From Chloroflexota bacterium (GTDB lineage: Bacteria > Chloroflexota > Anaerolineae > Anaerolineales > VGOW01), in the NCBI GenBank assembly GCA_016875735.1, contig VGOW01000006.1, positions 1 through 64,000 of the forward strand: a stretch of DNA of 64,000 nucleotides, in the 5' to 3' direction. The translations under genes were made by a program, and so were the position numbers. A model generated the notes under the pieces. It saw only the letters and a list, made by a program, of their open reading frames with translations, did not search any database and was not told where the DNA came from. This document shows, piece after piece, positions 26,198-47,444 of this stretch (its first letter is position 1; each line of letters begins with the position of its first letter).

Positions 26198-27375
26198 AAA
26201 AGCACGGACATCATCCCCGCCTTGACCTCCCGCGCCTTGGACAGTTTCGCTTCCAGCGCGGCGATTTCGGCGTCCATGTCGCTCAGGATTTCGGCGATGG
26301 CGGTTTGTTCGGGAACAGATGGGACAGGCAGAGTAATTTTGGCGATGTTGGTCTTGCTGATGCCAGTTACCTTTGTTCCTACTGAATAGAAAAGGAACTG
26401 TTTCTTTACCGCACGAGTTTGGAAACAATATCGCTTGTAGAGGTTGTTCAATTCATCCGTCTTGCTTTTCGCAACAATCGTGTGCAATCCTGAGATATAC
26501 GGGATGCCATCTGGATTGACGACAACCACATGCTTGCTTGCGCCTTCGTCATCTTCCGAAGCATCGACAAAGACAATATCTCCGTCATTCAACAAAGAAG
26601 ATGTTGAAACTTTGTTCAACGGAACATTGAGTTTGGGAATGTCTTGAAATTCGGCTTTCACATCAATAAATGATTTATTGGAAAGGTGAATATCGCCATA
26701 GTGCAGGTAACAATGACCTTCTGAGGAAAGTTGGTCTCGTGAAGCCGACAAGCCGCCGCTAATATTGAACAACTCACCAAAACTTTTCACTTCCCACTTT
26801 CCACTTTCCACTACCCTCTTTTTTCCCGTGAGCAATTCTTGCATCGCTCCTTGCTTGACCTGACGCTTTTTGGCAAGGAGTTGCTCCAGGGCTTCGATGA
26901 GCGCGTCCGCATCGCTCAAGGCTTCCGCGATGGCTTCTTGTTCGGTAGGGGAAGGTGGAAACGAAACTCGAAATTCATGTGCGTCATTGCGGTTTAGGGT
27001 TGGAACACCTGAGCCAGACCCAAAACGCTCAAAGCCAATAAACGTGTAAAGGTAATAAATGAATTTTGGGAAGTTGCCATTAAATCGAGTGACCCACAAA
27101 CTTGTATTATGAGGCCAGAAATCTTCCTCAACATAATGGATTTTTCCAAGAGTTCCAGATCTACCAGTGACAACCCCAGGACTACGAACCATAAAATTAT
27201 CGTGGTGGTTGGTTATTCCATTGGAATAGACTACTGGATAAATTCCATCTTTGAGTTTTGAAGATGGAAGATCAAAGCCCCTTTGCAATGGCGCAATTTG
27301 AGCGATTGTTCTAACTTCCCAATCTTCTGGAATAACGCCAACTTCCGTTTCCTTGAAACCCGCTTTTACTTCCAT
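26164..27375 (-). CDS. hsdS: Type I restriction-modification specificity subunit S
   Basis: 403 residues with two target-recognition domains. TRD1 (residues ~20-150) is followed by the conserved spacer helix PTEQEAIAEALSDADALIEA and KRQVKQGAMQELLTGKKR. TRD2 (~200-340) is followed by VPEQTAIAEILSDMDAEIAA and KAREVKAGMMSVLLSGQL. It sets the bipartite DNA target. The ATG overlaps the hsdM stop (ATGGAAGTAA), implying translational coupling. The linker after the first spacer helix (VVESGKWEVKSFG) is encoded by a heptamer array, which places repeat length polymorphism exactly where the spacing between the two recognition half-sites is set. The last residues also lie in an array. Confidence 0.93.
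   Translation of the reverse strand: MEVKAGFKETEVGVIPEDWEVRTIAQIAPLQRGFDLPSSKLKDGIYPVVYSNGITNHHDNFMVRSPGVVTGRSGTLGKIHYVEEDFWPHNTSLWVTRFNGNFPKFIYYLYTFIGFERFGSGSGVPTLNRNDAHEFRVSFPPSPTEQEAIAEALSDADALIEALEQLLAKKRQVKQGAMQELLTGKKRVVESGKWEVKSFGELFNISGGLSASRDQLSSEGHCYLHYGDIHLSNKSFIDVKAEFQDIPKLNVPLNKVSTSSLLNDGDIVFVDASEDDEGASKHVVVVNPDGIPYISGLHTIVAKSKTDELNNLYKRYCFQTRAVKKQFLFYSVGTKVTGISKTNIAKITLPVPSVPEQTAIAEILSDMDAEIAALEAKLSKAREVKAGMMSVLLSGQLRVYSGE
26784..26818. repeat. Heptamer array inside hsdS between the two recognition halves
   Basis: About five units (ttttcac, ttcccac, tttccac, tttccac, taccctc) in register, translated as part of VVESGKWEVKS right after the central spacer helix. Confidence 0.75.
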
Positions 27376-29888
27376 GTGAACCCCATCCTTTCCAAATGGC
27401 GGTTCACTTTCTCTTCCAGTTCATCCACGCGGGCGTTCATCTGCGGCAGGGGCGTAGCGTAGCGTTCGGAGAGTTCCTTCACGCGCTGGGTCAGGCTCTG
27501 GCTCACGCGCTCCATTTCACTGTGAATGGCGGCGTCCAGCACGGCGAGCCATTTATCATCCACCACCAACGATTTGATCTCGGCTTCGGTCAGCTTCGGG
27601 TAATGGGCGTAGGCTTTCGCGTCCAGCTCGGCTTCAGCATCCTTGAGCTTCTTCTTCAACTCGCCTTCCTCCCCACTCAACCTCAACCACTCCTCCAACA
27701 CCGCCAACTCACTGCTCACTGATGACTGATCACTATCCACTCCCAACTTTCCACTTTCCACTTTCAACTCTTTAACTCGCGAAGCGATGTTCGCCTTATT
27801 CACCTTCTCCAACTCCGCAAACGCCCCCTCCTCGCCGCCTTCCTCCTCTTCCAATTCTTCGAGACGCGCCGTCACGGCTTCCAGTAGAGACGCAAGATTT
27901 TGCGTCTCTACCAATTCATTTTGGTAATAGCGCGCCACGATCAACGGCTTGGGGATCAGGTCACACGTCCAGCCTTTGTCTTTTTCCTTGCCCTTCTTGT
28001 CGGTCTCGACGATGCGCTGGGTCTCCGCCTTCCAACCGTCCGCGGCGATCAGGTACAGGTCGTCCTGCATCGTCCCCGCCCAGTAATCCATCAGGCGCTG
28101 GTAAATGTCATAAGAGTTGAGAAGGGAAAGTGAATAGTGAATAGTGGAGAGTGATGAGTTGAGAGTTCCACTCTCCACTTTCAACTTTCCACTCTCTCCT
28201 CTTGCATAGTGCGATAGCAGATCCTCCGACAGCGTAGCGATCACCTCACGCGGTTTGGAGCCCGCCCCAAGTCCACGCAGAGACGCGGCGCTTTTCATCC
28301 GCCATTTTTCGAAATGCCCGTTCATGTCCGCGATAAAGGATGCGAATTCGGGATGGGCGTAGATCGTCTGTTTGAGTTGAGAGTGGGAAGTGGTAAGTTG
28401 AAAATAGCCGGACCTCACCCCCGGCCCCTCTCCTATCAGGAGAGGGGAGAACAAGGCCGTTCTCAAATTCGGGCAAACGCCCCAATATTTGTGAAGCGCG
28501 TCAACGTCCGCGGCGGGGATGCCGCCCTGCAAGTGACCGGCGATGTCCTGAACGTCTTCGGGCTCCTGGCTGTCGATGTAGCGCGGCAGGTTCAGGTTGA
28601 ACTCGTTGCGCTCGATCTCCTCGAACGACACCATGCGCGCATACTTCTCGACCTCGCTGCGCTTGTTGAACACGTCCACGATCTTGTGAATATCCTGCGC
28701 GCGCAAGCGGTTCTTGGGACCATCCTTCATGAAGCCGCGGCTGGCGTCGATCATGAAGATACCTTTGCGAGCCTGCGCGCCTTCCTTGTCAATGACAACG
28801 ATGCAGGCGGGGATGCCCGTGCCATAAAACAGGTTGGCAGGCAGACCGATGATGCCCTTGATGTAACCCTTGCGCACCAACGCGCGGCGGATGTCGGCTT
28901 CAGCGTTGCCGCGGAAGAGCACGCCATGCGGCAGAATGCACGCGCCCTTGCCCGTGCTCTTGAGCGAGCGGACGATGTGCAGCAGGTAGGCGTAATCGCC
29001 TTGTTTGGCGGGCGGCACGCCGAACGACGCAAAACGGTCATACAGATCGTTGAGCGGATCAAGCCCTGTGCTCCAGCGTTTATCGGAGAACGGCGGATTG
29101 GCGACCACGTAATCGAAGGTCTTGAGCGCCTCGCCGACTTTGTACTTTGGATCGGTGAGCGTGTTGCCCTGCGAGATCAACGCCGTGGGATTGTTGTGCA
29201 GGATCATGTTCATGCGCGCCAGACCGCTGGTCGCCGCATCCTTTTCCTGACCGTACAGCGTGACTGGCATCCCCGCTTCATCTCCCACCTTGAGCAGCAG
29301 CGACCCCGATCCGCACGTCGGGTCGTAGACGGTTGTCTCCGCGCTGGTCTTCGCACTGCGAATACCGCTAATCTTCGCCATGATCTGGCTCACCTCGGAC
29401 GGCGTGTAGAACTGGCCTTTGCTCTTGCCGCTCTCGGTGGCAAAGTGGCGCATGAGGTATTCGTAGGCGTCGCCCAAAATGTCGTCGCCCTCGGCGCGGT
29501 TCTTCGAGAAATCCAACGCCTTGCTCTCGAAGATGGCGATGAGATTGGTGAGGCGGTCCACCATCTCCTTGCCGCTGCCGAGCTTGTTGGCGTCGTTGAA
29601 ATCGGGGAAGTCGGAGAGCTTATTGGCGTTCGCCAGCGGCGCGATGATGCGCTTGTTGATTTGGTCGCCGATGTCGGGCTTGCCCTTCAGCGCCACCATA
29701 TCCTTGAAGCTCGCCCCTGCGGGTATCGTGATCGGCGCATACGGCACCCCCGCATACTTATCGCTGATGTACTTGATGAACAACAACACCAGTACATAAT
29801 CCTTATACTGCGACGCATCCATGCCGCCGCGCAGTTCGTCGCAACTCGACCACAGGGAAGAATAGAGTTCGGATTTCTTGATGGGCAT
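27366..29888 (-). CDS. hsdM: Type I restriction-modification DNA methyltransferase subunit M
   Basis: 840 residues, adenine N6 methyltransferase of the HsdRMS complex. The start MPIKKSELYSSLWSSCDELR (29888) follows a good promoter; the frame extends to 29987 without support. The N-terminal HsdM domain is followed by motif I DPTCGSGSLL and the catalytic motif IV NPPF in VVANPPFSDKRW. The protein is longer than usual because of translated repeats: an SPLLIGEGPGVRSGYFQLTT region, a 28-residue block (GESGKLKVESGTLNSSLSTI...) and a 21-residue block (KELKVESGKLGVDSDQSS...), plus a REP palindrome (ELVETQNLASLLEA). The conserved flanks YDIYQRLMDYW and others are intact, so it may still be active. Overlaps hsdS by 10 nt. 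Confidence 0.93.
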   Translation of the reverse strand: MPIKKSELYSSLWSSCDELRGGMDASQYKDYVLVLLFIKYISDKYAGVPYAPITIPAGASFKDMVALKGKPDIGDQINKRIIAPLANANKLSDFPDFNDANKLGSGKEMVDRLTNLIAIFESKALDFSKNRAEGDDILGDAYEYLMRHFATESGKSKGQFYTPSEVSQIMAKISGIRSAKTSAETTVYDPTCGSGSLLLKVGDEAGMPVTLYGQEKDAATSGLARMNMILHNNPTALISQGNTLTDPKYKVGEALKTFDYVVANPPFSDKRWSTGLDPLNDLYDRFASFGVPPAKQGDYAYLLHIVRSLKSTGKGACILPHGVLFRGNAEADIRRALVRKGYIKGIIGLPANLFYGTGIPACIVVIDKEGAQARKGIFMIDASRGFMKDGPKNRLRAQDIHKIVDVFNKRSEVEKYARMVSFEEIERNEFNLNLPRYIDSQEPEDVQDIAGHLQGGIPAADVDALHKYWGVCPNLRTALFSPLLIGEGPGVRSGYFQLTTSHSQLKQTIYAHPEFASFIADMNGHFEKWRMKSAASLRGLGAGSKPREVIATLSEDLLSHYARGESGKLKVESGTLNSSLSTIHYSLSLLNSYDIYQRLMDYWAGTMQDDLYLIAADGWKAETQRIVETDKKGKEKDKGWTCDLIPKPLIVARYYQNELVETQNLASLLEAVTARLEELEEEEGGEEGAFAELEKVNKANIASRVKELKVESGKLGVDSDQSSVSSELAVLEEWLRLSGEEGELKKKLKDAEAELDAKAYAHYPKLTEAEIKSLVVDDKWLAVLDAAIHSEMERVSQSLTQRVKELSERYATPLPQMNARVDELEEKVNRHLERMGFTWK
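27714..27776. repeat. 63-nt heptamer array inside hsdM
   Basis: Nine units (for example gatcact, ttccact, ttccact, ttcaact) in exact register. 9 x 7 = 63 = 21 codons, so the frame is preserved. Confidence 0.85.
27884..27911. repeat. REP-like palindrome, copy 3 (inside hsdM)
   Basis: Arms GTAGAGACGCAA and TTGCGTCTCTAC with a 4-nt loop, identical to the arms of the RAYT-associated copies. Translated as LVETQNLASL within a helical linker of HsdM. Confidence 0.88.
28114..28197. repeat. 84-nt heptamer hairpin array inside hsdM
   Basis: Twelve units; the first half is of type gagttga, aagtgaa and tagtgga, the second of type actctcc, actttca and actttcc. 12 x 7 = 84 = 28 codons, keeping frame. It splits the conserved HYAxG...YDxYQ segment of HsdM. 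Confidence 0.88.
28371..28447. repeat. Heptamer array plus C-rich/G-rich hairpin inside hsdM
   Basis: Five heptamers (tttgagt, tgagagt, gggaagt, ggtaagt, tgaaaat; 28371-28405) directly abut a hairpin whose stem is CCCCTCTCCT (28425-28434) and AGGAGAGGGG (28438-28447), preceded by CCTCACCCCCGG. The hairpin is related to those in mnmA and gyrA. Confidence 0.8.
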
Positions 29889-30486: not shown

Positions 30487-31473
30487 ATGCAAATTAGGAA
30501 AGCAACGGGTTTTGCAAATAGCAACATCGCCTTCATCAAATACTGGGGCAATCGCGATCACGCTCTCCGCCTGCCCGTCAACGATTCTCTCTCCATGAAC
30601 CTCGACGGCCTCCACACCCGCACCACGGTCGCCTTCGATCCGAGTCTCACCGCCGATGTGGTCGCGCTGGGCGGCCAAATCCAATCGCCCGAATCATCCA
30701 AACGAGTCAGCGATCATCTAGATCGAGTCCGCGCCCTCGCCGGACTCAAAACCTTTGCCCGCGTCGAAAGCGAAAACAACTTTCCCACTGGCGCAGGCAT
30801 CGCCTCCTCGGCCTCCGGCTTCGCCGCTCTCACGGTGGCCGCTGGCGCCGCCGCCGGCCTCGCCCTCTCCGAACGCGAACTGTCGATCCTCGCCCGGCAG
30901 GGCTCCGGCTCCGCGAGTCGATCCATCCCTTCCGGCTTCGTCGAGTGGAAAACCGGATCGAACCCCGATGGCCGTGACTCGTTCGCTTTCTCCGTCGCCG
31001 CGCCCGATCATTGGGCGCTGGCCGATTGCATCGCCATCGTCAGCAGCGCCCATAAAGAAGTCGGCTCCACCGGCGGGCACGCCCTCGCGCGCACCAGCCC
31101 ACTGCAGCAAGCGCGCATCGAAGACGCGCCGCGTCGACTCAACCTCTGCCGCGAGGCCTTGCTGGCCCGCGACTTCGAGAAGTTCGCCGAGGCCGTCGAA
31201 GAAGATTCGACGATGATGCACGCCATCATGATGACCTCGCGCCCGCCGCTGTATTATTGGCTGCCGCCCACCCTCGCCGTGATGGACGCCGCCCGCAAGT
31301 GGCGAGCCAACGGCCTCCCCGCCTGTTTCACCATCGACGCCGGGCCCAACGTTCACGTCCTCACCCTCGCCGCGCACGCCAGCGATGTTGCCAGCCGCCT
31401 CCGCGCCCTGCCCGGCGTGCAAAACGTTCTCGTCGCCGCGCCCGGCGGCGGCGCATCGCTCATCAACGAATAA
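30487..31473 (+). CDS. mvaD: Diphosphomevalonate (or phosphomevalonate) decarboxylase
   Basis: 328 residues, GHMP-kinase fold. It makes isopentenyl diphosphate (or isopentenyl phosphate) by ATP-dependent decarboxylation in the mevalonate route used by Chloroflexota. Motifs: SNIAFIKYWGN at the N-terminus, the GHMP loop PTGAGIASSASGFAAL, SGSASRSIPSGFVEW, and FTIDAGPNVHVL with the catalytic Asp. In Roseiflexus a close homologue acts on phosphomevalonate rather than the diphosphate, so the substrate is not settled by family membership. No other mevalonate gene lies in the window. A near-leaderless promoter precedes it and rseP follows. Confidence 0.9.
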   Translation: MQIRKATGFANSNIAFIKYWGNRDHALRLPVNDSLSMNLDGLHTRTTVAFDPSLTADVVALGGQIQSPESSKRVSDHLDRVRALAGLKTFARVESENNFPTGAGIASSASGFAALTVAAGAAAGLALSERELSILARQGSGSASRSIPSGFVEWKTGSNPDGRDSFAFSVAAPDHWALADCIAIVSSAHKEVGSTGGHALARTSPLQQARIEDAPRRLNLCREALLARDFEKFAEAVEEDSTMMHAIMMTSRPPLYYWLPPTLAVMDAARKWRANGLPACFTIDAGPNVHVLTLAAHASDVASRLRALPGVQNVLVAAPGGGASLINE

Positions 31474-31496
31474 TCTGCCGCTCCGACACAGAGGGG

Positions 31497-31502
31497 TATA
31501 AT
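31497..31502 (+). promoter_or_regulatory. -10 box of rseP
   Basis: Perfect TATAAT 10 nt before the heptamer array 31513-31582; no convincing -35 box is visible. The array would be the whole leader of the rseP transcript. Confidence 0.45.
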
Positions 31503-31512
31503 TTCTTGCGAG

Positions 31513-31582
31513 AGACGAAGGACCCAAGACGAATGACGAATAGCGCTGCCTTCGTCCACCGTCGTCCGTCTTTCGTCAGAGC
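31513..31582. repeat. Heptamer hairpin array filling the rseP leader
   Basis: Ten units in register, ending on the base before the ATG. Left units such as agacgaa and tgacgaa are mirrored by right units such as gccttcg and tctttcg. Same unit type as the gyrA array. Confidence 0.85.
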
Positions 31583-32713
31583 ATGTTCGAACCCGAAAGC
31601 ATCCGCAACTTCTTCATCTTCGTCCTCATCGTCGGCGGGCTGATCTTCCTGCACGAACTCGGACACTTCATCGCCGCCATCCGGCTCGGAGTCAAAGTCA
31701 AAGAATTCGGCATCGGCTTCCCGCCGCGCCTCTTCGGCGCGGCGCGCGACAAAAATGGGATCCGCCGCTGGTTCTTCGGCAAAGCGCCCGACGACCTCGA
31801 CCCCGACGAAGTGATCTATTCGATCAACTGGATTCCCGTCGGCGGGTTCGTGAAGCCTGCAGGCGAAGATGACCCCACCGTTCTCGACGGGCTGTCGGCC
31901 TCCCCCAAACTCACCCGCCTCGTCGTGCTGGCCGCCGGGTCGGCCATGAATCTTCTCGTCGGCGTCATCGTCTTCACCCTCGCCTTTGCCACCGGCTATC
32001 CGCAATACACCCAGCGGGTGATGATCTCCGGCGTGGTGATGGACGCGCCCGCCGACCTTGTCGGACTCAAACCGGGCGATATTGTGATCTCGGCCAACGG
32101 CGAAACCGTGACCGCCGACACCAACCGCCTCAGCGAAATCACCCGATCCAATTTGGGCCAGCCGGTTCGGCTGGTCATCGAACGCGGCGGCGAAACCTTG
32201 AGCATCACTGTGGTTCCGCGCACCGAATGGCCCGAAGGGCAAGGCCCCATGGGCATCACTCTCGATCAGGAATGGACGCTGGCAACCCTGCCCCTGCCGC
32301 AGGCTTTTATCAACAGCATCGGGCAAGTCGGCTTCCAGATTCAAGAAACATTCATGATGCCGGTGCGGGTCATCGTCGGGCAAATCCAAGCCAGCGAGGT
32401 GCGCTTCGTCAGCGTCGTCGGCATCAAACAGATCAACGATGTGGTGGTGGATACCGCCGTCGAAATGGGAAGCCTCTTTCCCATTCTGCAATTCACCGGA
32501 ATGATCACGGTGGCTCTGGCCCTCACCAACCTTTTGCCCCTGCCCGCCCTCGACGGCGGGCGCATCCTGTTCGTGCTCATCGAGGCCGCGCGCAGGCGGC
32601 GCGTTGACCCTCTGCGCGAAGGCTACGTGCACATCATGGGCATGCTGGCCCTGCTGGCGCTCATGGCCGCCCTCGTCATCAACGATCTGCTCAACCCCGT
32701 CGTCCTCCGCTAA
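31583..32713 (+). CDS. rseP: RseP-like M50 site-2 membrane metalloprotease
   Basis: 376 residues. Intramembrane zinc protease that cleaves transmembrane anti-sigma factors or signal-peptide remnants. The zinc motif HELGH (residues 24-28) lies in the first helix FLHELGHFIAAIRLG; the third ligand region is NLLPLPALDGGRIL near the C-terminus. A single PDZ domain (MDAPADLVGLKPGDIVISAN) lies between the helices. At 376 residues it has the one-PDZ size of Gram-positive-type proteins. The leader is a heptamer hairpin. The HEAT-repeat gene starts 6 nt downstream. Confidence 0.93.
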   Translation: MFEPESIRNFFIFVLIVGGLIFLHELGHFIAAIRLGVKVKEFGIGFPPRLFGAARDKNGIRRWFFGKAPDDLDPDEVIYSINWIPVGGFVKPAGEDDPTVLDGLSASPKLTRLVVLAAGSAMNLLVGVIVFTLAFATGYPQYTQRVMISGVVMDAPADLVGLKPGDIVISANGETVTADTNRLSEITRSNLGQPVRLVIERGGETLSITVVPRTEWPEGQGPMGITLDQEWTLATLPLPQAFINSIGQVGFQIQETFMMPVRVIVGQIQASEVRFVSVVGIKQINDVVVDTAVEMGSLFPILQFTGMITVALALTNLLPLPALDGGRILFVLIEAARRRRVDPLREGYVHIMGMLALLALMAALVINDLLNPVVLR

Positions 32714-33708: not shown

Positions 33709-34631
33709 CTCTGCTCCTCTCCATCTTTCTCAACAACATCGCGCCCATCTTCCTCGCCGCCGGAGCGGGGTTTGCCATTGGGCGCGCCCTCCGGCCCGAC
33801 ATTCGATCCGTCTCGCGGATCACCTTTTACATTTTCAGCCCCTGCCTCGTCTTCACCGCCCTCACCGAGAATCAATTGAGCGGCGATGAATTCGGGCGGA
33901 TGGTTGTCTTCACCGTCGGCGCGGTGCTGGTCTCGGGCGCGGCGGCGTTCGTGGTGGGCCGGGCGCTTCGCCTCGACCGCCCCACGATGGCCGCCTTGCT
34001 CGTGGTCAACATGTTCGTCAACGGCGGCAACTACGGCCTGCCCCTCAATCGCTTTGCCTTCGGCGACCCGGCAGTGGCCCGCGCCATCATCTATTACGTT
34101 TTCAGCACGCTCATGGTGTACACTGTGGGTGTGGTGGTGGCCTCGCGCGGAAGATCATCACTGCGCCAATCGCTCATGGGCGTCGCCACCGTGCCCGCGC
34201 TCTACGGCTTGCTCCTCGCCGGAGCCCTGCGCCTCGCCAACGTGGACGTGACCGACTCCTCCACCCTCATCTTTCCGCTTCTGCGCGCCATCAAACTGCT
34301 CAGCGGCGCCGCCCTGCCGGTGATGATCGTGGTGCTTGGTCTGCAGCTCGCCGAAGCCCAGCGCCCCGAAAACCTTCGCCTCGTCACTGCGGCCTCAGCA
34401 CTGCGGCTGATCACCGGCCCGATCATCGGCATCGGCATGGCCGCCGCGCTCGGGCTGAGCGGCGTTGCCCGGCAGGCCGCCGTCCTCGAATCGGCCATGC
34501 CCACCGCCGTCATCACCACCATCCTCGCCATCGAATACGGCCTCGACCCGGTGTTCGTCACCAGCGTCGTCGTCGTCAGCACCCTGCTCAGCCCGCTCAC
34601 CCTCACCCCGCTCATCGCCTACCTGCAATGA
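33705..34631 (+). CDS. AEC family transporter
   Basis: 308 residues, ten predicted membrane helices, of the auxin efflux carrier (AEC) superfamily. Typical features: NNIAPIFLAAGAGFAIGRAL at the N-terminus, VVNMFVNGGNYGLPLNRFAF (the conserved NxGNxGLP motif) and ESAMPTAVITTILAIEYGLD. The substrate is unknown; relatives carry malate or other organic acids. The chosen TTG start overlaps the HEAT stop by TTGA, giving the usual family length; a longer frame from 33348 is antisense-free but overlaps HEAT and is not real. The stop overlaps the next ATG (ATGA). Confidence 0.88.
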   Translation: MTLLLSIFLNNIAPIFLAAGAGFAIGRALRPDIRSVSRITFYIFSPCLVFTALTENQLSGDEFGRMVVFTVGAVLVSGAAAFVVGRALRLDRPTMAALLVVNMFVNGGNYGLPLNRFAFGDPAVARAIIYYVFSTLMVYTVGVVVASRGRSSLRQSLMGVATVPALYGLLLAGALRLANVDVTDSSTLIFPLLRAIKLLSGAALPVMIVVLGLQLAEAQRPENLRLVTAASALRLITGPIIGIGMAAALGLSGVARQAAVLESAMPTAVITTILAIEYGLDPVFVTSVVVVSTLLSPLTLTPLIAYLQ

Positions 34632-35821
34632 CACCGCGCCCGCTCCTCCTCCTCGTCCTTCTCCTCGCCGCGCCTGCCCAATCAGCCATCAGCCATCGGC
34701 CATCAGCAATTAGCGTCGATTCCATCTCCGTCACCCACACCTTCGGCGAGCAAATGATCTTCACCCTCGCCGCCCACAGCGACGCCGAAATCACTCAAGC
34801 CACCCTCTTGCTGCGGGTGGGCGCCGACTCGCGCACCGAAGTGATCGGCGCTGACTTGTTTCCCGCGCCGCAGATCGAAACGCAGGTGACGCTCGATCTG
34901 CAAACTCAACCCATCGCCCCCTTCGCCGACGTGTTCTATTCGTGGCGCATCGCCGACTCATCCAGCGAAACCATCACCACCCCCGAACAAACCTACCTTT
35001 ACGAAGACAACCGCTTCCAATGGGAAACGGTCGCGCGCGGCGCCGTCCGCGCCCACTGGCACAGCGGCGATCTCGCCTTCGGCCAATCGGTTGCCGACAT
35101 TGGCTATGAATCTCTCAACCGCGCCAGCCGATTAATGGACACCTCGCCGCCCGATCAGGTGGACATTTACGTTTACGAACGGCTCGACGATCTCCAATCG
35201 GGACTCCGCCTCGGCGGGCGCGACTGGGTGGCCGGGCACGCCGATCCCTCGCTCGGCGTGGTGCTGGTGAACTCCTACGCCGACACCGCCGCTTTGCTCG
35301 AACTCGAAAACACCCTCGCCCACGAACTCACTCACGTCCTGATTTATCAGATCGTGCAGGCGGGTTACGACCGAATGCCCGTGTGGCTCGACGAAGGCAT
35401 TGCCGTCAACAGCGAGCCGCGCCCCAACGCGATCTTCGGCGATGCGCTGACTCGAGCCGTCGAAACCGAAGCCATCATCCCGCTGGAATCGTTGTGCGGC
35501 GCGTTTAGCATCGACTCATCGCGCGCCATCCTCTCCTACGCCGAAAGCGCCTCGCTCGTGCGCTACATCCGCGACCGTTGGGGACCGGGCGCTATTCGCG
35601 ATCTGCTCACGGCTTACCGCGAAGGCGCAACCTGCGAAGGCGGACTCCAGCGCGTGCTCAAAGTCTCGTTTGTCGAACTGCAAACCGGATGGGAAAGCGA
35701 TGTTCTGCGCGCCAGCCCATTGGCCGCCTTTCTGCGCGAGGCGATGCCCTATGTGTTCGTCTTCGGGCCGGTGGCCGTCATCCTCGCCGCCCTCCTCTTC
35801 GCGCCCAAACGCAAAACCTGA
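34628..35821 (+). CDS. Membrane-anchored peptidase MA-like metalloprotease
   Basis: 397 residues. Signal peptide MTPRPLLLLVLLLAAPAQS, then a short stretch encoded by heptamers (AISHRPSAIS), an immunoglobulin-like region (~30-120), and a gluzincin domain with HELTH in TLAHELTHVLIYQIVQAGYD followed by PVWLDEGIAV, the third-ligand region of the peptidase MA-like family. A C-terminal membrane helix (YVFVFGPVAVILAALLFA) anchors it, with the catalytic domain outside. Start ATG overlaps the AEC stop. Confidence 0.88.
   Translation: MTPRPLLLLVLLLAAPAQSAISHRPSAISVDSISVTHTFGEQMIFTLAAHSDAEITQATLLLRVGADSRTEVIGADLFPAPQIETQVTLDLQTQPIAPFADVFYSWRIADSSSETITTPEQTYLYEDNRFQWETVARGAVRAHWHSGDLAFGQSVADIGYESLNRASRLMDTSPPDQVDIYVYERLDDLQSGLRLGGRDWVAGHADPSLGVVLVNSYADTAALLELENTLAHELTHVLIYQIVQAGYDRMPVWLDEGIAVNSEPRPNAIFGDALTRAVETEAIIPLESLCGAFSIDSSRAILSYAESASLVRYIRDRWGPGAIRDLLTAYREGATCEGGLQRVLKVSFVELQTGWESDVLRASPLAAFLREAMPYVFVFGPVAVILAALLFAPKRKT
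34679..34713. repeat. Heptamer array after a signal peptide
   Basis: Five units (caatcag, ccatcag, ccatcgg, ccatcag, caattag) in register at the junction of signal peptide and mature protein of the metallopeptidase. Confidence 0.8.
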
Positions 35822-35825
35822 TCTC

Positions 35826-35895
35826 ACCACAGAGGCCACCGAGAATACGGAAAGCAATTCCAAATTCTCTGTGGTTTCCGTGATCTCTGTGGTGC
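35826..35895. repeat. Intergenic hairpin of the ACCACAGAG type
   Basis: ACCACAGAG at 35826-35834 and CTCTGTGGT at 35886-35894 are perfect inverted ends, with a second internal TCTCTGTGG (35866-35874) and mirrored TTTCCGTGA. It fills the space between the metallopeptidase stop and the next ATG. Confidence 0.75.
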
Positions 35896-35898
35896 AAC

Positions 35899-36435
35899 AT
35901 GAGCGCCCCAACGCTTATTTTTGATCTCGAAACCCAACACCTCGCCGACGAAGTGGGCGGCTGGAGCCACATCGCCAAAATGAAGATGGCCTGCGCCGTC
36001 ACCCTCGACGTCGACGCGGGCACGATCACTCGCTACCTCGAAAGCGATGCCGAAAAACTTCTCGCCGATCTGCGCGCCGCCAGCCTCGTCGTGGGCTTCA
36101 ACGTTCTGCGATTCGATTACGAAGTCCTTCGACCGTATGCCGGTGGGGAGCCGCTGGCCCTCCCCACCGTCGATCTGCTTGCCGATCTCTATCGCGCGTT
36201 GGGCTTCCGACTCTCGCTCGACTCCGTCGCCAGCGCCACGCTCGGCCACAGCAAAAGCGCCGACGGCGTCCTTGCCGTCCATTGGTTTCGCAGGGGCGAG
36301 ATCGAAAAGGTGCTCGACTACTGCGAGCAGGATGTGCGAGTGACGCGCGATCTCTACGAATACGGCAAGACCCACCAGCACGTCCAATACCGCGATAAGT
36401 TTGGGCGGCTGAAGCGAGTGGCGGTGCGATGGTAA
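35899..36435 (+). CDS. RNase H-like (DEDD) exonuclease-domain protein
   Basis: 178 residues of the YprB/DnaQ-like ribonuclease H fold. Acidic residues expected for catalysis are seen in LIFDLETQ (Exo I), VVGFNVLRFDYEVL (Exo II) and YCEQDVRVTRDLYEYG (Exo III, Tyr/Asp). It is a stand-alone nuclease domain, probably acting 3'-5' on DNA or RNA; the substrate is unknown. No helicase domain is attached. Confidence 0.82.
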   Translation: MSAPTLIFDLETQHLADEVGGWSHIAKMKMACAVTLDVDAGTITRYLESDAEKLLADLRAASLVVGFNVLRFDYEVLRPYAGGEPLALPTVDLLADLYRALGFRLSLDSVASATLGHSKSADGVLAVHWFRRGEIEKVLDYCEQDVRVTRDLYEYGKTHQHVQYRDKFGRLKRVAVRW

Positions 36436-36436
36436 A

Positions 36437-36562
36437 ATCAGTAGCCAGTAGTCAGAAGTCAGTAATCAGCGGTCGGTAGTCAGTGAATGGAAAGCGCAGG
36501 GCGATCAAGCGCTCCGCGATCACTAATTACCAATCACTGATCACTTTCTCCTCAACACACCG
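36437..36562. repeat. 126-nt heptamer hairpin array directly before acyP
   Basis: Eighteen 7-nt units in unbroken register, ending on the base before the ATG at 36563. The left half is made of gtcagta-like units, the right half of cactaat, taccaat and cactgat, near reverse complements. A TAAAAT box (36433-36438) at the left end could be the -10 element. Confidence 0.9.
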
Positions 36563-36865: not shown

Positions 36866-38131
36866 ATGACCGAAGCCATACATTATCAGCCCGTCGAGCG
36901 GCGCGCGTGGGGCATCATGATCGCCGCATTCATCACCTTCTGCGCGCTGGTCATCACCACGCCGCTCGGCATCAACTGGTTTCTGCGCGCCGCCGAAGCA
37001 TCGCAGGAAGTGTCCATCACGCTGATCTCCGGCACGGTGTTTCTCACTCAACCCGGCGCAACCCTGCCGCAAGCGGTGGTGGAGACGGTGCCCAACGTGG
37101 CCGTTGCCAGCCGCATCGACAGCGAAGCCGGATCGCAAGCCGCCGTTTCGTTTTATGCGCCCGATCAAACGACCGCGCTCGGCTCATTGCAAATTTATGG
37201 CGGGAGCAGCGTCGAATTGAGGGAGATGCATTCGCCGCGCTTCGAATGGAGCGACCGCCCACATCGCATGACAATCGAGATGCAGAGAGGCCGGGCGCGC
37301 GTGAGTCTCGCGGTGAACGTCAGCCGCGCTATTATCATTGCGCTGCAAACGCCGCACGGCGAAGTGCTGCTCGACCAGCCCGGCAGTTATTCGGTGGAGG
37401 TGACGGCGCAGATGACCGAAGTGGCAGTGCACGACGGCGAAGCAGTCGTCACCGCCGAGGGGAACAGCGTGGAACTCGCGCCCGGCCAGCGAACCACTCT
37501 CCGCCCCGGCCAGACTCTTGAAGTGGCCACCGGCGACCGCAACCTCATCGCCAACGGCGACTTCGCCGCGCCCCTTTCCCCCGCCGACTGGAATCCATAT
37601 ATCGAACGCTACGACCCCAACGACGCCGAGGGCCAGATCGAGATCACGGTGGATGCCGGGCGCAAAGCCATCCACTTTTATCGCCCCGGCAGCAATTGGG
37701 GGCGTGTGGGCATTCAGCAAAAAATTAATCGCGACGTGCGCGACTATCAAAGTTTGCGATTGCATCTGGCCGTGCGCGTCGTCAGCCAGAACATATCGGT
37801 GTGCGGCTCGATGGGATCGGAGTGCCCGCTGATAGTGAAGATCGACTACACCGACTTGGCCGGCAACAAGAACGAATGGATTCAGGGCTTCTATTATGCC
37901 GACGATCCGAGCGGCGTTTTGCCGCCACTGTGTATTGCCTGCTCCGGGCAGAAAAATAATCATGTCCGCATCCAGCGCAGTGTTTGGTTTTCGTACGACT
38001 CACCCGACCTCATCACCCTCTTCCGCAACGCCGGGCGCACCCCTGCCGTTATCAACGCCATTGCCATCTATTCCGAAGGCCATTTCTTCGAAAGCCTCGT
38101 CTCAGAAATTGAGTTGTTGGCCGGAGACTGA
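36866..38131 (+). CDS. Membrane-anchored FecR-like protein
   Basis: 421 residues from the ATG at 36866. One N-terminal membrane helix (WGIMIAAFITFCALVITTPL) is followed by an extracytoplasmic FecR-like beta domain (residues ~60-220: FYAPDQTTALGSLQIYGGSS, TPHGEVLLDQPGSYSVEV, HDGEAVVTAEGNSVELAPGQ). The C-terminal half (NLIANGDFAAPLSPADWNPY onward) looks like a galactose-binding-type jelly roll. FecR domains usually pair with ECF sigma factors, but none is present, so this is more likely a cell-surface sensor or structural protein. Confidence 0.75.
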   Translation: MTEAIHYQPVERRAWGIMIAAFITFCALVITTPLGINWFLRAAEASQEVSITLISGTVFLTQPGATLPQAVVETVPNVAVASRIDSEAGSQAAVSFYAPDQTTALGSLQIYGGSSVELREMHSPRFEWSDRPHRMTIEMQRGRARVSLAVNVSRAIIIALQTPHGEVLLDQPGSYSVEVTAQMTEVAVHDGEAVVTAEGNSVELAPGQRTTLRPGQTLEVATGDRNLIANGDFAAPLSPADWNPYIERYDPNDAEGQIEITVDAGRKAIHFYRPGSNWGRVGIQQKINRDVRDYQSLRLHLAVRVVSQNISVCGSMGSECPLIVKIDYTDLAGNKNEWIQGFYYADDPSGVLPPLCIACSGQKNNHVRIQRSVWFSYDSPDLITLFRNAGRTPAVINAIAIYSEGHFFESLVSEIELLAGD

Positions 38132-38139
38132 GTAGGCCA

Positions 38140-38258
38140 ACGATGAATGCTGAGCGCGGAACGATGAACGCCGATTCCCGACCCCCGGTCTTTCAACGAC
38201 TTTCGCTCTTCGCTCTTCGCTCTTCATCCTTCATCCTTCATCCTTCCTCCTTCCTCCT
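38140..38258. repeat. 119-nt heptamer array at the start of a glycosyltransferase
   Basis: Seventeen units in exact register: acgatga-type units first, then three tcgctct, three tcatcct and two tcctcct. It covers the apparent ATG and the first ~39 codons (FALRSSSFILHPSSFLL) of the next gene. Confidence 0.9.
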
Positions 38259-39966
38259 CGCCTTCCCCCTCGCCATTTACCTCGCCCTCGCCCTTCCTCA
38301 ACTGACCCTGCCCGGTCTGCACAACGATGAGGCTGTGGAAGCCGGATTACAGGCCATGCAGATTTTGCGCGGCCAACCCATCGCCGCCTTTCGCGGCGCC
38401 GGCATTGATCTCGGCGGGCGCGTCTTTCCGTTGATGGCGCAAGACTACATCGGCGCCTTCAACGTTTACTTGGCCCTGCCCTTCTTCGCCGCGCTCGGCC
38501 CCACCGCCGCCGCGCTCCGGCTGTATACCGTGCTCATCGGCGCAGTCACCCTCCTCCTCACCTTCGGCTTCCTCGCCGGCACAGTGAGCAAACGCGCGGC
38601 CTTCATCGCCGCCATGCTTCTCGCCGCCTCGCCCGCGTTCATCTTCTGGCAAAGGCAGGGCGTGTACGTGGCCTCGCTCACGGCCACATTCGCCGTTGGC
38701 GCATTGTGGGCGGGCGCGGACTGGGCCAAACGAGGCGGCTGGCCGCGCGCCGCCGCGCTCGGCCTCCTCTGCGGCGCAGGGCTGTACGCCAAACTCCTCT
38801 TCATCTGGATCATCGGCGGAATGATCGGCGCATTGGCGATCATCAACGCCCCCGCGTTAATCTCAAATCTCAAATCTCAAACTTCCAATTCCGTATTCCG
38901 CATTCCGTATTCTGCCTTTCCTCGCGCCCCCTCCCTCCCCGATCTCCTTGCTTTTGCCTTCGGCCTCCTCCTCGCCCTCGCGCCGCTCGTCGCTTTCAAC
39001 CTGCAAACAGGCGGCACATTCCTCTCGGTGGGCGCAAACCTCACCACCTCTTTTTACGGCGTGAACAACCTCGACTTCGCCAAAAACCTCGCCGCCCGAG
39101 TCGATCATTTTCGCGCCGTCATCGCCGGGCGCGATCACCTGTGGTATCTCGGCGGATCATTCGGCAACGGGCTGTGGGAGCCCGCTCTCGGCCTCTCGGC
39201 CATCGTGATTCTGGGACGCTGGCTTTTTCGCCGCCAGCGATCTCGGCTCCCCGTCGCCATCCTTTTGTTGCTCGCTCTCGGCCTTGCGCAATCGTCGTTC
39301 ACCGTTTCCGGACTCTTCCCCACCCACTTCGCTGTCTTCACCCCGCTCTGGCCCATTCTCGTCGCCCTCGCCGCCGAACCGATCTTCACTCGCCTCACCG
39401 CCCCGAACTTGAATGGGTGGTTGGGCGCTTCCCACTCCGCTGTCGCTACGGGACGCTGTCGCGGGGTGGTGGGGTGGTTAGGGTTCGTGAGATTGGGGAT
39501 GGTGGTGACGGCGTTGGGATTGGGAATGTTGTTCGCGGGCGACGTGATGACGACGATGCAATATCACGCCGCGCTGAAAGAGTCCGGCGGACTCGGCCCC
39601 CACTCGGATGCGGTGTATCGGCTGATCGATTGGCTGAATGAAAACGTCCCCAAAGGGGCGCCGATCATCGCAGTGGATTGGGGCTTCGCGCCGCAGATGC
39701 GGATGCTCTCTCGCGGCGAACTCGACCCGCAGGAAATTTTCGGCTACTCGTGGGAAGCCGATGAGGGCTTCGCCGAGCGGCTCGACGCCGCGCTCGATCA
39801 GCCCGGCGCGTTATTCGTCTTTCACTTCCCGCAAGAAACCATCTTCCCCCGCCGCGAGCCATTCGATGCGGCAGTGAGCGAGCGCCGCTGGCAAGTTGAG
39901 CAGTTGGCCATCATCTCGCGCCGCGATGGCGCGCCGGTGTTCGAAGTGGCAAGAATAGAACGTTGA
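38143..39966 (+). CDS. GT39/ArnT-like membrane glycosyltransferase
   Basis: About 607 residues with a dozen membrane helices. The acidic loop LPGLHNDEAVEAGLQAMQIL resembles the catalytic DE loop of dolichyl-phosphate-mannose type (GT-C) transferases; the C-terminal domain is extracytoplasmic (PKGAPIIAVDWGFAPQMRM). The first 39 codons are translated from a heptamer array, so the true start is uncertain; ATG 38143 and ATG 38164 both lie in the array. A second, 63-nt array adds 21 residues (LKSQTSNSVFRIPYS) between helices. Likely transfers a sugar from a lipid carrier to an exported acceptor. Confidence 0.83.
   Translation: MNAERGTMNADSRPPVFQRLSLFALRSSSFILHPSSFLLAFPLAIYLALALPQLTLPGLHNDEAVEAGLQAMQILRGQPIAAFRGAGIDLGGRVFPLMAQDYIGAFNVYLALPFFAALGPTAAALRLYTVLIGAVTLLLTFGFLAGTVSKRAAFIAAMLLAASPAFIFWQRQGVYVASLTATFAVGALWAGADWAKRGGWPRAAALGLLCGAGLYAKLLFIWIIGGMIGALAIINAPALISNLKSQTSNSVFRIPYSAFPRAPSLPDLLAFAFGLLLALAPLVAFNLQTGGTFLSVGANLTTSFYGVNNLDFAKNLAARVDHFRAVIAGRDHLWYLGGSFGNGLWEPALGLSAIVILGRWLFRRQRSRLPVAILLLLALGLAQSSFTVSGLFPTHFAVFTPLWPILVALAAEPIFTRLTAPNLNGWLGASHSAVATGRCRGVVGWLGFVRLGMVVTALGLGMLFAGDVMTTMQYHAALKESGGLGPHSDAVYRLIDWLNENVPKGAPIIAVDWGFAPQMRMLSRGELDPQEIFGYSWEADEGFAERLDAALDQPGALFVFHFPQETIFPRREPFDAAVSERRWQVEQLAIISRRDGAPVFEVARIER
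38858..38920. repeat. 63-nt heptamer array inside the glycosyltransferase
   Basis: Nine units (taatctc, aaatctc twice, aaacttc, caattcc, gtattcc, gcattcc, gtattct, gcctttc). 63 nt keep the frame; encodes a polar loop. Confidence 0.88.
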
Positions 39967-43557: not shown

Positions 43558-43634
43558 TAAAGCAAGCGATTAGCCAATAGCGAATAGCGGTTAGCATTTG
43601 GCAACTAACCGCTTACTGCTGCTCGCTAACCGCT
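43558..43634. repeat. Heptamer array filling the gap between two minus-strand genes
   Basis: Eleven units in register, starting directly after the ATG of the spermidine-synthase-like gene and ending 1 nt before the stop codon of the M23 gene. Units agcgatt, agccaat and agcgaat on one side face aaccgct, tactgct and gctcgct on the other. Confidence 0.9.
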
Positions 43635-43635: not shown

Positions 43636-45270
43636 TTAGAAATTCCGCGCTCCCACGATCTTGGGGATGTCGGTCAGCGTGCCGTCTTCCAACCGCCAAG
43701 CCTCGTTGGGGAAATAGGCCGAGGCGGAGAGAACGAAGGAGAAGGCCGCGCCCATACCGGCGACACTGCGCAGGCGCTTGTAATAGTTCACATACTGCTG
43801 GCCTTTGGTGCGCGTGTCGGTGTTGTCGGTGGGGTTCGAGAATTCGGTGATGAACAATTGCTTGTTCGGGTAACGGCGGCGGTATTCTTCGTACACCAGC
43901 CCGCCCGTCGCCGCGAGTTGATCGGCGTCGTTGATCCAATAGCAGTGACAGCACATGAAATCGGCGGCGCGCGCGGCTTCGTCGCTCTGGCCGAGGAAGG
44001 CCCACGAATCGACTCGCTGGCCGCTGATGCTCGCGCCCGGCGAGAGGCCGGGGTAACCGAACTTGGCTTCGGGGTATTTGGCTTTGAGGCGATTGATTAC
44101 ATCGGTGAGCCAGCGGCCAAACTCTTTGCCGTCCTGCCACGAGGATTTCCAACCCTCGATTTGCAGATTCGGCTCGTTGTGCACTTCGAAGTAGCGCACA
44201 CCGCGCGCGTAAAACTGGGCCATGCCGTCATCCGACCACGAGGCGAATTCGTCGGAGCGCACGCGGCGGTTGCGGAAGTCGGCGAAGAGGCGAACCATGA
44301 TGAACATGTCCGGGTTGATCTGCCTCAGCCGATCGATGCTTTCGGGGCGGGCGGTGGACATGAGTTTGATGGCTTCGACTCGCGCGGCCTGCAGCACCGG
44401 GTAATCGGCCTCGGTGAGGGGGCCGTCGGCCCGGCCATTGACTCCGACGAGACAGCGCCGATAGGCCCAGCCGAAGGAATCGGGCGGCGGAGTCACGACG
44501 GCGGCATCCTGCAAAAAAGGAGTCGGATCGATGATGTCGTTGGGATAGTTGGTGAGTCCGGCGGCGGTCGCCCCCTGCTTCTTCAGCGTCAAATGCAAAT
44601 GGCTTCCGGTCGAGTTGCCGGTCGAGTCGGCCAGCCCGATCTTGTCGCCCGCTTTCACTTGCTGGCCTTCGGTAGCGAGCGCTTGCTGCATGTGGGCGTA
44701 AATCGTTTGGTAGCCGTCGCGGTGCTGAATGCGGACGTGAATGCCGTAGGCGTGCGGGCTGCCATTCTGAAGTTTGCCGGTGGCGTTCACTTGAAACACC
44801 GTGCCATCGGCGGCGGCATAAAGGTTGGCGCCCATCGGCGCGCGGATGTCGAGGCCTTCGTGGCCGGGCAGGCCGAAGCGGCGGTAGATGTCGGGGTTGA
44901 CGCCGAAGGGCTGAGTGATCTTCGGGTAGTCGGTGGGCCAGCGCAGGGTGAACGGCGCGCTCTCCTGGGTGAACTGGGTGTTGTTGGCAATGCGGGCGGC
45001 CAGCGCGTTTTTGAGATCGGCGGGCGATCCGACGTTGATGACATCGAGGCGAATGTTGGGGTAGTTGTCTTTGAACCACTGAACGATGTCGCGGCCATAG
45101 CCGTCGGGCGCGTTGGCAATGGAGATCACTTGGTTGGGCGCGTAATAGTTGGCCGCCGATTGCGGGTCGGGGGTGACGTTGGGGCCGAACTTGAGCACGT
45201 AATCGCGCGCGGCGGCGACCCATTCGTAGTAGTTTTGTTTCGGAAGAAGGATGATTTGATTCTCAGGCAT
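43636..45270 (-). CDS. M23 peptidase fused to a glycoside-hydrolase-like domain
   Basis: 544 residues. The N-terminal ~120 residues have a ligand-binding-like fold (LPKQNYYEWVAAARDYVLKF). Residues ~135-235 are a LytM/M23 endopeptidase: HEGLDIRAPMG with the first His and Asp, and SHLHLTLKK with HxH. Residues ~260-540 resemble a TIM-barrel glycosidase: YFEVHNEPNLQIEG (Asn-Glu acid/base) and FITEFSNPTDN (nucleophile Glu). Such a fusion could cut both peptide and glycan of the cell wall or a matrix. No signal peptide is visible, so export is uncertain or the start is wrong. The downstream-strand paralogue lacks the M23 part. Confidence 0.83.
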   Translation of the reverse strand: MPENQIILLPKQNYYEWVAAARDYVLKFGPNVTPDPQSAANYYAPNQVISIANAPDGYGRDIVQWFKDNYPNIRLDVINVGSPADLKNALAARIANNTQFTQESAPFTLRWPTDYPKITQPFGVNPDIYRRFGLPGHEGLDIRAPMGANLYAAADGTVFQVNATGKLQNGSPHAYGIHVRIQHRDGYQTIYAHMQQALATEGQQVKAGDKIGLADSTGNSTGSHLHLTLKKQGATAAGLTNYPNDIIDPTPFLQDAAVVTPPPDSFGWAYRRCLVGVNGRADGPLTEADYPVLQAARVEAIKLMSTARPESIDRLRQINPDMFIMVRLFADFRNRRVRSDEFASWSDDGMAQFYARGVRYFEVHNEPNLQIEGWKSSWQDGKEFGRWLTDVINRLKAKYPEAKFGYPGLSPGASISGQRVDSWAFLGQSDEAARAADFMCCHCYWINDADQLAATGGLVYEEYRRRYPNKQLFITEFSNPTDNTDTRTKGQQYVNYYKRLRSVAGMGAAFSFVLSASAYFPNEAWRLEDGTLTDIPKIVGARNF

Positions 45271-45285
45271 TGAGCGCTCCTGTCG

Positions 45286-46488
45286 TCAACGGATGTGCCG
45301 TCTCAACCCAATCTCGTGAGCGATGCCCACGTCGCGCCCCGTTTCGTCGCGCCATGCCCATCGCGCCGACTCCACGCGATCGGAGGTGGAAGAAATATAG
45401 GCAAAGGCGCCGCCCAAACCGGGGATGTGGCGAAGGATACCATAATAGCGAGAGTACTGCTCTGCCACCATCGGCTTGGGCTGTGAGGGGTTGCCGAATT
45501 CGGTGATGATGAGCACTTTGTCGGGGAAGAGTTGGCGGAGCACTTTCCACGTGAAGCCGCCGGTCACATCGGTCATCTCGCGGTCGCTGATCCAGTAACC
45601 ATGCACGGCAATCCAATCGGCGCGCGCCGCCGAGAGCGCCGCCTCGCCGAGAAACTGGCGCATGTTTTGGCGGATGTTCTGCATACTCGCTCCCGGCGAG
45701 AGTCCGGGGAAACCGTATTTTTTGTCGGGCCAGCGCTGCCGGAAAAGATCGACAACGCGGTCGAACCACGAGGCAAATTCGCGGCCATTGTTCCAACTGC
45801 CGCCGAGTCCTTCAATGGTCAGATTCGGCTCGTTGTGAACTTCGATGTATTGGATCGATGGGTCGGCATCGAACAGCCTTTGCAGATTGGGGGCCGTCCA
45901 TTCCACAAACTGATCGGGCGAGATGCGGCGCGGGCGCTCGTTTTCGACAAACGACACGATGGGGCGAACCATGATGAACACGCCGGGGTTGATGGCCCGC
46001 AGCGACTTCACCGACGCCTCAGTAGCGCTGCTGGTAAGCTTCACCGCCTCCACTCTGGCCGCGCGCACGATGTCGAAATCGGGGTTGAGCATTTCGCCGT
46101 CGGCGCGGCCATGCAAGCCAATGAGACTCATCCCCAACGGCCACTGCTGAGTCCAATCGTATTCGGACTGGAAACCGAATCGCAGACTGTAATAAACGCG
46201 GACATGCAGAATCTCGGCCAGCACTTCGGGGGTGGGGGCGGTGAGCCGCTCGACGACGAGCGGGCGCGGATTCTGTTTGATGAGCAGAGAGAGTTCGGGA
46301 GGCCACGACTCGGGGTTGACGATAGTGATGCGCTCGTACTGCGGGTTGGCCGCCTCGGCGAAATCGTGAGCGATGCGCGCGCCCGGAAAGAGCGCGGCAT
46401 ATTCCACCACCGCCGCGCCCCAATGGGCCACTTCGACGTTGGATGCGCCGGGCACGAGAATGAGCTGCTCGATGCGTGGGTAAGGCAC
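45286..46488 (-). CDS. Glycoside-hydrolase-like protein, paralogue of the M23 fusion
   Basis: 400 residues. The last ~300 residues parallel the preceding gene: GLHGRADGEMLNPDFD vs GVNGRADG, IEVHNEPNLTIEGLGGS vs FEVHNEPNLQIEG, YGFPGLSPGASMQN vs YGYPGLSPGASIS, and IITEFGNPSQ vs FITEFSNPTD, so both carry the two putative catalytic Glu. The N-terminal ~110 residues are different (MPYPRIEQLILVPGASNVEV), a possible NodB-free substrate-binding or Rossmann-like domain. GTG start. A heptamer array lies directly upstream, after radC. Probably a tandem gene duplication followed by domain swap. Confidence 0.8.
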   Translation of the reverse strand: MPYPRIEQLILVPGASNVEVAHWGAAVVEYAALFPGARIAHDFAEAANPQYERITIVNPESWPPELSLLIKQNPRPLVVERLTAPTPEVLAEILHVRVYYSLRFGFQSEYDWTQQWPLGMSLIGLHGRADGEMLNPDFDIVRAARVEAVKLTSSATEASVKSLRAINPGVFIMVRPIVSFVENERPRRISPDQFVEWTAPNLQRLFDADPSIQYIEVHNEPNLTIEGLGGSWNNGREFASWFDRVVDLFRQRWPDKKYGFPGLSPGASMQNIRQNMRQFLGEAALSAARADWIAVHGYWISDREMTDVTGGFTWKVLRQLFPDKVLIITEFGNPSQPKPMVAEQYSRYYGILRHIPGLGGAFAYISSTSDRVESARWAWRDETGRDVGIAHEIGLRRHIR

Positions 46489-47281: not shown

Positions 47282-47337
47282 AACGGTTGGAGAGGATAAT
47301 ACTTCGGAGGGCAGGAGAGGTCAAATCGGTTTCACTG

Positions 47338-47343: not shown

Positions 47344-47345
47344 CG

Positions 47346-47443: not shown

Positions 47444-47444
47444 A

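Follow-up and report, generated by a model that had tools for sequence, protein, structure and literature searches.

Described heptanucleotide repeat systems

Cyanobacterial short tandem repeats (STRRs) comprise fixed unit families, and a mirrored architecture is not known to be the rule among them. They share with the arrays reported here the tandem 7-nt unit, as do the long simple sequence repeats of prokaryotes, in which the length 7 is over-represented; a secondary account of the latter gives the heptamer as the commonest unit length and slippage as the proposed origin (Mrazek, 2007, cited in PMC4679880).

The GGGAATC repeats of Xanthomonas are found closely paired in opposite orientation in 70–75 cases per genome (Rehm et al., 2015; PMC4692102). 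Like the present arrays, they are dispersed 7-nt arrays, located mostly in co-directional gaps and more rarely at divergent junctions, with close inverted pairs; their length varies between related genomes, which is also counted as a likeness. Xanthomonas, however, has one G-rich family (GGGANTN) with quadruplex potential, whereas the arrays described here comprise many units per genome, are AT-rich relative to the genome and show unit replacement at orthologous sites. In Geobacter metallireducens, class 3 elements consist of five tandem heptanucleotides (MTYCTGA) looping back, and 49 elements carry four GGACCGG repeats (Aklujkar et al., 2009; PMC2700814). These too are palindromic heptamer arrays at many loci, but only two consensus units occur, both fixed; they were described as sites for regulator binding, with no analysis of turnover between orthologues. 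No shared consensus unit GGGAATC or MTYCTGA is present in the genomes studied here, in which units vary both within and between genomes.

TAACTGA direct repeats of Beggiatoaceae, cyanobacteria and Bacteroidetes (MacGregor, 2015; PMC4679880) resemble the present arrays in being intergenic heptamers directly 5' of start codons, and show 7-nt indels between close strains; they differ in consisting of a single unit arranged as direct repeats, of which the main genome has only one inverted instance. REP/REPIN and GTAG/CGTC palindromes are likewise small, dispersed and intergenic, but they are described as having a conserved sequence and an association with RAYT (PMC3116915, PMC3733652), neither of which is apparent in the present arrays. 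Arm homogenization and spacer inversion are produced, as here, by template-switch mutations at quasi-palindromes, but these are reported as point events in unique sequence rather than as a genome-wide source of arrays (PMC8794818, PMC8604942).

Heptamer excess and inverted heptamer arrays are therefore already known. The original prediction had regarded a palindromic heptamer family as unfamiliar, which does not stand in view of the Xanthomonas GGGAATC inverted pairs (PMC4692102) and the looped-back sites of G. metallireducens (PMC2700814). New here are the diversity of units within a single genome and the joint replacement of the two arms at junctions that stay in place. The literature consulted, with most subscription papers outside its scope, contained no report of many heptamer unit types in one genome, of orthologous palindromes in which the two arms have been exchanged for new ones, or of heptamer arrays with an inverted spacer.

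A genome-wide period of 7 nt

The stretch analysed (the window) comprises the opening 64 kb of contig 6 in a draft genome (G000) of 4.15 Mb and 150 contigs. Its relatives are groundwater Chloroflexota metagenome bins of an uncultured genus in the order Anaerolineales. Gene calls were made with a codon-pair model (83–94% coding by contig) and are approximate, so that single start positions may be wrong. The scan of G000 covered 864 kb of the 4.15 Mb (21%). The congeners, which include CAKKQG01 (Hainich; G001), JACRBQ01 (G003) and JACRLA01 (G004), were sampled at about 4–13% each.

Within the window, a lag scan found lag-7 identity of at least 17/21 at 11 places; the other lags from 4 to 24 gave none at 17/21, save for four at lag 14, a harmonic. 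Across the 864 kb of G000 there were 103 lag-7 segments, compared with 16 at lag 6, 20 at lag 8, four at lag 9, two at lag 10 and none at lags 5, 11 and 13; the harmonics at lags 14 and 21 gave 66 and 28. A first-order Markov resample of G000 DNA yielded no lag-7 segment. Non-harmonic lags thus reached 20 segments at most (0–20 up to lag 13). The 7-nt register is real and genome-wide, as had been predicted, and the lag-7 check that the prediction proposed for relatives gives the same result: all five congeners are enriched, with 10–36 arrays per 100 kb. Other families of Anaerolineales have approximately 2 arrays per 100 kb (268 kb sampled). A sample of 1.08 Mb flanking a single gene across many phyla gave a count of 25 at lag 7 and of 0 at each of lags 8, 10 and 11, and arrays occurred beyond the Chloroflexota in Verrucomicrobiota, Planctomycetota, Calditrichota and others.

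The units differ from locus to locus, again as predicted, and fall into 125 classes among 273 arrays in the five genomes; no genome is restricted to one or a few fixed units. Some unit types are found at many loci, for example AAGGATG at 17 of the 273. The arrays share no common body, which agrees with the earlier view that this is not one mobile sequence. They are AT-rich compared with the remaining intergenic DNA (G+C 0.45 versus 0.55), and similarity between units declines along an array from 5.68/7 for neighbours to about 3.8 for units 7–11 apart. A purine/pyrimidine grammar, RRNRRYN, is modestly enriched in the genus; as a universal grammar it was dropped, there being no enrichment in other phyla. 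The longest array seen (G000 C4:10230–10464) consists of 234 bp of nearly pure AAATCTC/AAACCTC.

Array loci in the window

All 14 loci originally listed as having an unbroken 7-nt register were checked, with thresholds of at least 9 for a lag-7 segment and at least 13 for mirrored arms. Thirteen gave a lag-7 segment, although weakly at 28371 (9.2) and only in the second half at 38140; the locus at 31513 gave none at 9 or above, but has mirrored arms (score 13). The predicted architecture, a run of units followed by near reverse complements, was found at nine of the 14 (10641, 26065, 28114, 31513, 36437, 38140, 43558, 46495 and 47346). Four are direct only (9561, 27714, 34679 and 38858), 28371 has an arm score of 10, and arrays within genes are mostly unmirrored.

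The locus on which the prediction centred is an intercistronic palindromic heptamer array (36436–36562, + strand) extending from the stop of gene 35899–36435 to the start of an acylphosphatase-like gene at 36563. Its arms, at 36454–36497 (AGTAGTC-type) and 36509–36552 (GATCACT/AATTACC-type), score 16, and the predicted RNA fold has an energy of −35.2 kcal/mol (z −3.4). The interval 35822–35898 (+) holds an intercistronic palindrome of longer period, of the type CACAGAGG.../...CCTCTGTGG; in G002 this junction is occupied by a heptamer array and in G003 by a palindrome of period 10.

Other mirrored loci vary in setting. A GACGAAG/CTTCGTC array at 10643–10693 (+; arms 10643–10660 and 10674–10691) ends 11 nt 5' of the start of gene 10705–13476, and a TAGCGAA-type array lies at 43565–43634 (−; arms 43565–43594 and 43605–43634, score 14). 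The array of GAAGGATG and CATCCTTC at 46495–46567 (−; arms 46500–46525 and 46542–46567) is located between genes 45286–46488 and 46565–47281 (−). Two loci without an assigned strand are a palindromic cluster of GAGTTGA...TCAACTC type at 26066–26197 (arms 26072–26096 and 26173–26197, score 15) and an array at 28112–28203 (arms 28112–28148 and 28167–28203, score 19), the latter inside called gene 27366–29888 (−). At 38130–38259 (+), a mirrored array (arms 38130–38168 and 38223–38259) lies over the 38131/38164 junction; its lag-7 run (38202–38258, the second half) falls in N-terminal codons of the called gene, and each of the five genomes has a different repeat array or palindrome at this junction.

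A weakly periodic GACGAAG...CTTCGTC palindrome at 31514–31577 (+), between genes 30487–31473 and 31583–32713, lies 3' of a TATAAT. Similarly, the palindromic array at the divergent junction 47345–47448 (+; arms 47346–47385 and 47409–47448 around AACTTGCAA) is 3' of a conserved GTATAAT. In G002 and G003, which have no array at the 47346 junction, the GTATAAT is about 10 nt 5' of the start codon and transcripts would be nearly leaderless; in the array-bearing genomes the array is situated between this box and the ATG, and would form a 5' leader. The box and array arrangement at 31490–31583, with its orthologues in G001–G004, was examined alongside that at 47330–47450.

Direct-only arrays comprise CAATCTC at 9564–9590 (+), units drifting from CTCACTG to ACTTTCC at 27708–27769 (−, inside called gene 27366–29888), AATCTCA followed by ATTCCGT units within a gene at 38859–38912 (+), and ATCAGCC at 34681–34714 (+), in the N-terminal part of gene 34628–35821. 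At the point corresponding to this last array, G001 has AATCTCC and CATTCCG units and G002 no clear array. Two further direct-only arrays on the − strand, GAGTTGA/AAGTGGA at 25666–25697 and ACTTTCC at 26782–26819, were absent from the original list, and the weak GAGTTGA/AAGTGGT array at 28374–28403 (strand unassigned) is the locus with a lag-7 score of 9.2.

Other kinds of dispersed palindrome were encountered. One, with shared stretches TATCTCTAAACC, GGTGACTGTCACC and GGTTTAGAGATA, occurs in the window at 20828–20909 and 21666–21768 and at G000 C1:141182, and looks like a small mobile element. A perfect hairpin, AGACCGACGCGGTTTC/GAAACCGCGTCGGTCT, and a GTAGGGGCGACC...GGTCGCCCCTAC family, both intergenic, were recorded at G000 C2:78092, C2:43364 and C5:33748 and at the G002 and G003 junctions opposite C4:94138.

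Position relative to genes

Most arrays are intergenic, even though intergenic DNA is a small fraction of the genome. The 97 merged arrays of G000 are distributed as 53 in co-directional gaps, 36 within genes, three convergent, three divergent and two at edges; pooling five genomes gives 157 intergenic, 74 in-gene and 16 mixed. Per kb of gap, the five genomes have 2.42 arrays in co-directional, 1.16 in convergent and 0.64 in divergent gaps. An array often takes up the entire gap, beginning no more than 15 nt from the stop codon and finishing a few nt short of the next start. In many junction palindromes the outer limits of the arms fall at −15 to +8 relative to the stop codon and 0–15 nt 5' of the next start. 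The description of the family as placed at gene starts thus needs correction: most intergenic arrays occupy the stop-to-start gap on the same strand, and more than one-third of arrays lie within genes. One called gene of approximately 3 kb contains five separate heptamer arrays of different unit types (G000 C13:13990–15111).

Mirrored arms, strand bias and other periods

Mirroring is mainly intergenic. In G000, a strong inverted repeat (score of at least 16) is present in 43% of arrays in co-directional gaps versus 3% of those in genes; the controls gave 3% for regions chosen at random and 2% for pairings of arms from separate loci. Over the five genomes, mirrored arms occur in 64 of 157 intergenic and eight of 74 in-gene arrays (p = 2e-6). 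Among co-directional junctions that bear an array, 95 of 163 are palindromic, and approximately 40% of junction arrays are unmirrored. Since a heptamer array reads through all frames, the reverse complement of a stop-free unit would often be intolerable within a gene. Even for units free of stops on both strands, however, mirrored arrays number 16 of 42 intergenic versus five of 33 in-gene, and the stop-codon filter accounts for only part of the scarcity of palindromes in genes.

The purine-rich arm comes first (5') in 56% of palindromes, with 5% in the opposite order, and direct-only arrays 5' of starts have a pyrimidine-rich sense strand in 30 cases versus eight. This placement of purines and pyrimidines may reflect avoidance of false Shine–Dalgarno plus ATG signals.

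Period 7 is dominant, as predicted, but is not the sole register at these junctions. Palindromic co-directional junctions number 97 with period 7, 22 with period 8, 12 with period 9, six with period 10 and three each with periods 6 and 11, and a further 66 have no clear period. Units of the palindromes at array junctions include GATGACAA, GTAGTCGA and GGTTGGGT for period 8 and CACGAAGAA, CACAGAGAA and CGCAGAGAC for period 9; period-10 units are CACAGATGAA and CGCAGATAAA, and the period-6 unit is GAGTTG.

Individual longer-period palindromes were also recorded. Those of period 8 (GGTTGGGT, GATGACAA, GTAGTCGA and GTAAACAG) are intercistronic at G000 C4:8768, C4:41136, C4:43215, C4:50061 and C4:54007. 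Opposite 45270–45285 of the window, G001 and G004 have a period-8 palindrome whose units are retained, while several heptamer arrays of both genomes have been replaced. Palindromes of period 9 or 10, with CACGAAG, CACAGAG, CGCAGAG and CACAGAT units, are located at G000 C3:3170, C3:66377, C4:29016, C5:7422 and C5:53403 and at 35822–35898 of the window. The period-9 palindromes often share similar outer ends, TTCACC...GGTGAA.

Comparison of orthologous junctions

At the junction of the acylphosphatase-like gene, G002 and G003 have no array, and there the exonuclease-like gene and its acylphosphatase-like neighbour share 4 nt. At the same point, the repeats are an AGTAGTC/GATCACT palindrome in G000, direct AATCTCC units in G001 and a GTGATGC palindrome in G004. 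G001 and G004, at 88% identity, are the closest relatives compared.

Across 86 junctions, the orthologue had a heptamer palindrome as well in 19 of 37 comparisons in which G000 has one, versus eight of 104 otherwise. Seven of the 37 orthologous junctions opposite G000 heptamer palindromes were empty; at empty sites opposite repeat-bearing G000 junctions the genes overlap or nearly meet (gaps of −9 to +6). On average, the match is 0.65 between the two arms of one locus, 0.345 for the same arm across orthologues and 0.236 for unrelated junctions. The palindrome is thus often kept at orthologous junctions, but frequently with a new unit that has taken over the two arms jointly. The junction at G000 C3:65644–65729 has five unit types in five genomes and is palindromic in all five.

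G001 and G004 share seven array junctions, with the unit changed in five (junctions 5, 20, 35, 36 and 79) and kept in two (7 and 84). In junction 84 (C13:18059–18135) both arms are kept and the spacer is inverted, GACTCGCGTGGCG in one genome versus CACCACGCGAGTC in the other. The spacers match at 12 of 13 positions as reverse complements versus three of 13 in the forward direction (chance approximately 2e-5 after 39 pairs). This inversion, the only one found, was checked by hand and by count; the arms extend into the spacer.

Origin of the arrays

The arrays are probably, although with modest confidence, hypermutable heptamer satellites that grow by 7-nt slippage, are mirrored by DNA template switching and are tolerated in short gaps. 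Replication slippage would cause tandem duplication in 7-nt steps and give a direct array. Fold-back template switching could then allow one arm to template the other, writing the reverse complement alongside; later switching would re-match the arms, and repeated rounds would replace the unit type of both together. Slippage would be the source of the direct units and the polymerase the agent of array change. Selection would mainly filter the sites of survival, namely gene gaps, 5' leaders and in-gene stretches with a stop-free sense-strand unit, and the arrays may have no dedicated function.

The original suggestion of slippage plus strand switching fits the data in three respects. The decay of unit similarity from neighbours outwards is the pattern predicted by serial local duplication and mutation; arms that change together and the one inverted spacer are what template switching between inverted repeats produces, spacer inversion and arm homogenization being described outcomes of that process (PMC8604942, PMC8794818). 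Against slippage and switching, no intermediate series was found at any one site among relatives that are at most 88% identical. In addition, the recurring units (AAGGATG at 17/273) and the AT-richness are not predicted by local slippage alone, nor the 5' bias of the purine-rich arm (56% versus 5%) by a symmetric process by itself. Local seeding gave no signal: in 28 pairs of an array and an empty orthologue, similarity was 6.57, versus 6.64 for unrelated junctions. Arrays are no closer to the empty orthologous junction than to unrelated ones, which lends no support to growth from local sequence. A lone suggestive case, G002 at C3:97494, where TTTTTGA units repeat the last bases of the upstream gene, was not counted. 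Loss of the hairpin nuclease SbcD as a permissive cause was rejected, as SbcD was matched in four of five congeners; in G004, a genome that is 76% complete, none was found.

Conservation of presence at a junction more than of sequence would also result from selection on shape. A selected mRNA hairpin in the intercistronic gap, acting as a spacer, processing site, attenuator or stop–start bridge for which any sequence of the right shape serves and units turn over freely, is possible but doubtful. It would account for the retention of palindromes at the same junctions (19/37 versus 8/104) without their sequence, for arms that in many cases bridge the gap between stop codon and next start almost completely, for the near restriction of mirroring to intergenic arrays, most of which are in co-directional gaps, for the purine-rich arm lying 5' and for the good predicted RNA fold at 36436–36562. 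The mismatches between arms point elsewhere. Heptamer palindromes have 106 G.U versus 131 A.C mismatches and other palindromes 120 versus 111, whereas control tRNAs of the same genomes have 16 versus 0; the lack of a G.U excess places the pairing at the DNA level, with no sign of selection at the RNA level. Moreover, approximately 40% of junction arrays are unmirrored, and the congener junctions are often empty, with genes overlapping (gaps −9 to +6). The stems also lack a terminator-type T run; an intrinsic terminator was rejected because only 7.6% of heptamer palindromes have at least five T in the next 9 nt. An Rfam search of the window gave no match to a described RNA family. A stronger version, in which the palindrome in 7-nt register is a conserved sequence-independent device kept at operon junctions while both arms are rewritten, would call for selection acting solely on shape or else for an undescribed enzyme able to write such palindromes into the gaps between genes, and is unlikely.

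The presence or absence of arrays at a site among congeners, the occurrence of some unit types at many loci and the wholesale replacement at one site could all be produced by a REPIN- or MITE-like palindromic element, mobilized by a Y1/RAYT-type transposase and divided into many subfamilies that differ in unit. This is improbable, as the arrays have no conserved ends or body, share non-periodic words no more than a random control and also occur within genes as plain direct repeats; Y1_Tnp domains number 1–4 in the genus, no more than the 5–7 counted in G014, G027 and G039, members of the order whose sampled DNA showed arrays rarely or not at all. The dispersed intergenic position and the symmetric arms would suit sites bound in double-stranded form, at 7-bp spacing, by a regulatory or nucleoid protein, and binding has been proposed elsewhere, by IHF/HU in G. 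metallireducens (PMC2700814) and at the RNA level for TAACTGA in Beggiatoaceae (PMC4679880). However, with 125 unit classes across the five genomes, and as many as five types at a single junction, there is no shared sequence that one protein could recognize, and divergent promoter regions are sparser in arrays than co-directional gaps (0.64 versus 2.42 per kb), which makes such sites very improbable. The relatives G001, G003 and G004 are draft metagenome bins and G000 is in 150 contigs, which would fit an assembly or binning artefact, but the arrays are internal to contigs, within conserved gene order and in several separate assemblies, and orthologous arrays differ in a structured way; the chance of an artefact is negligible.

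Implications

Bacteria have been known since 2007 to carry heptamer repeats in excess, but no explanation for this has been put to the test. A genus with many coexisting unit types, whose junctions bear different mirrored arrays even in relatives that are 88% identical, makes the process measurable: strain-level data can show how fast units are replaced, how closely the arms are coupled and where spacers invert. It also provides a natural case of compensatory change in a hairpin that seemingly originates at the level of DNA, and so advises caution in taking covariation as proof of a functional RNA.
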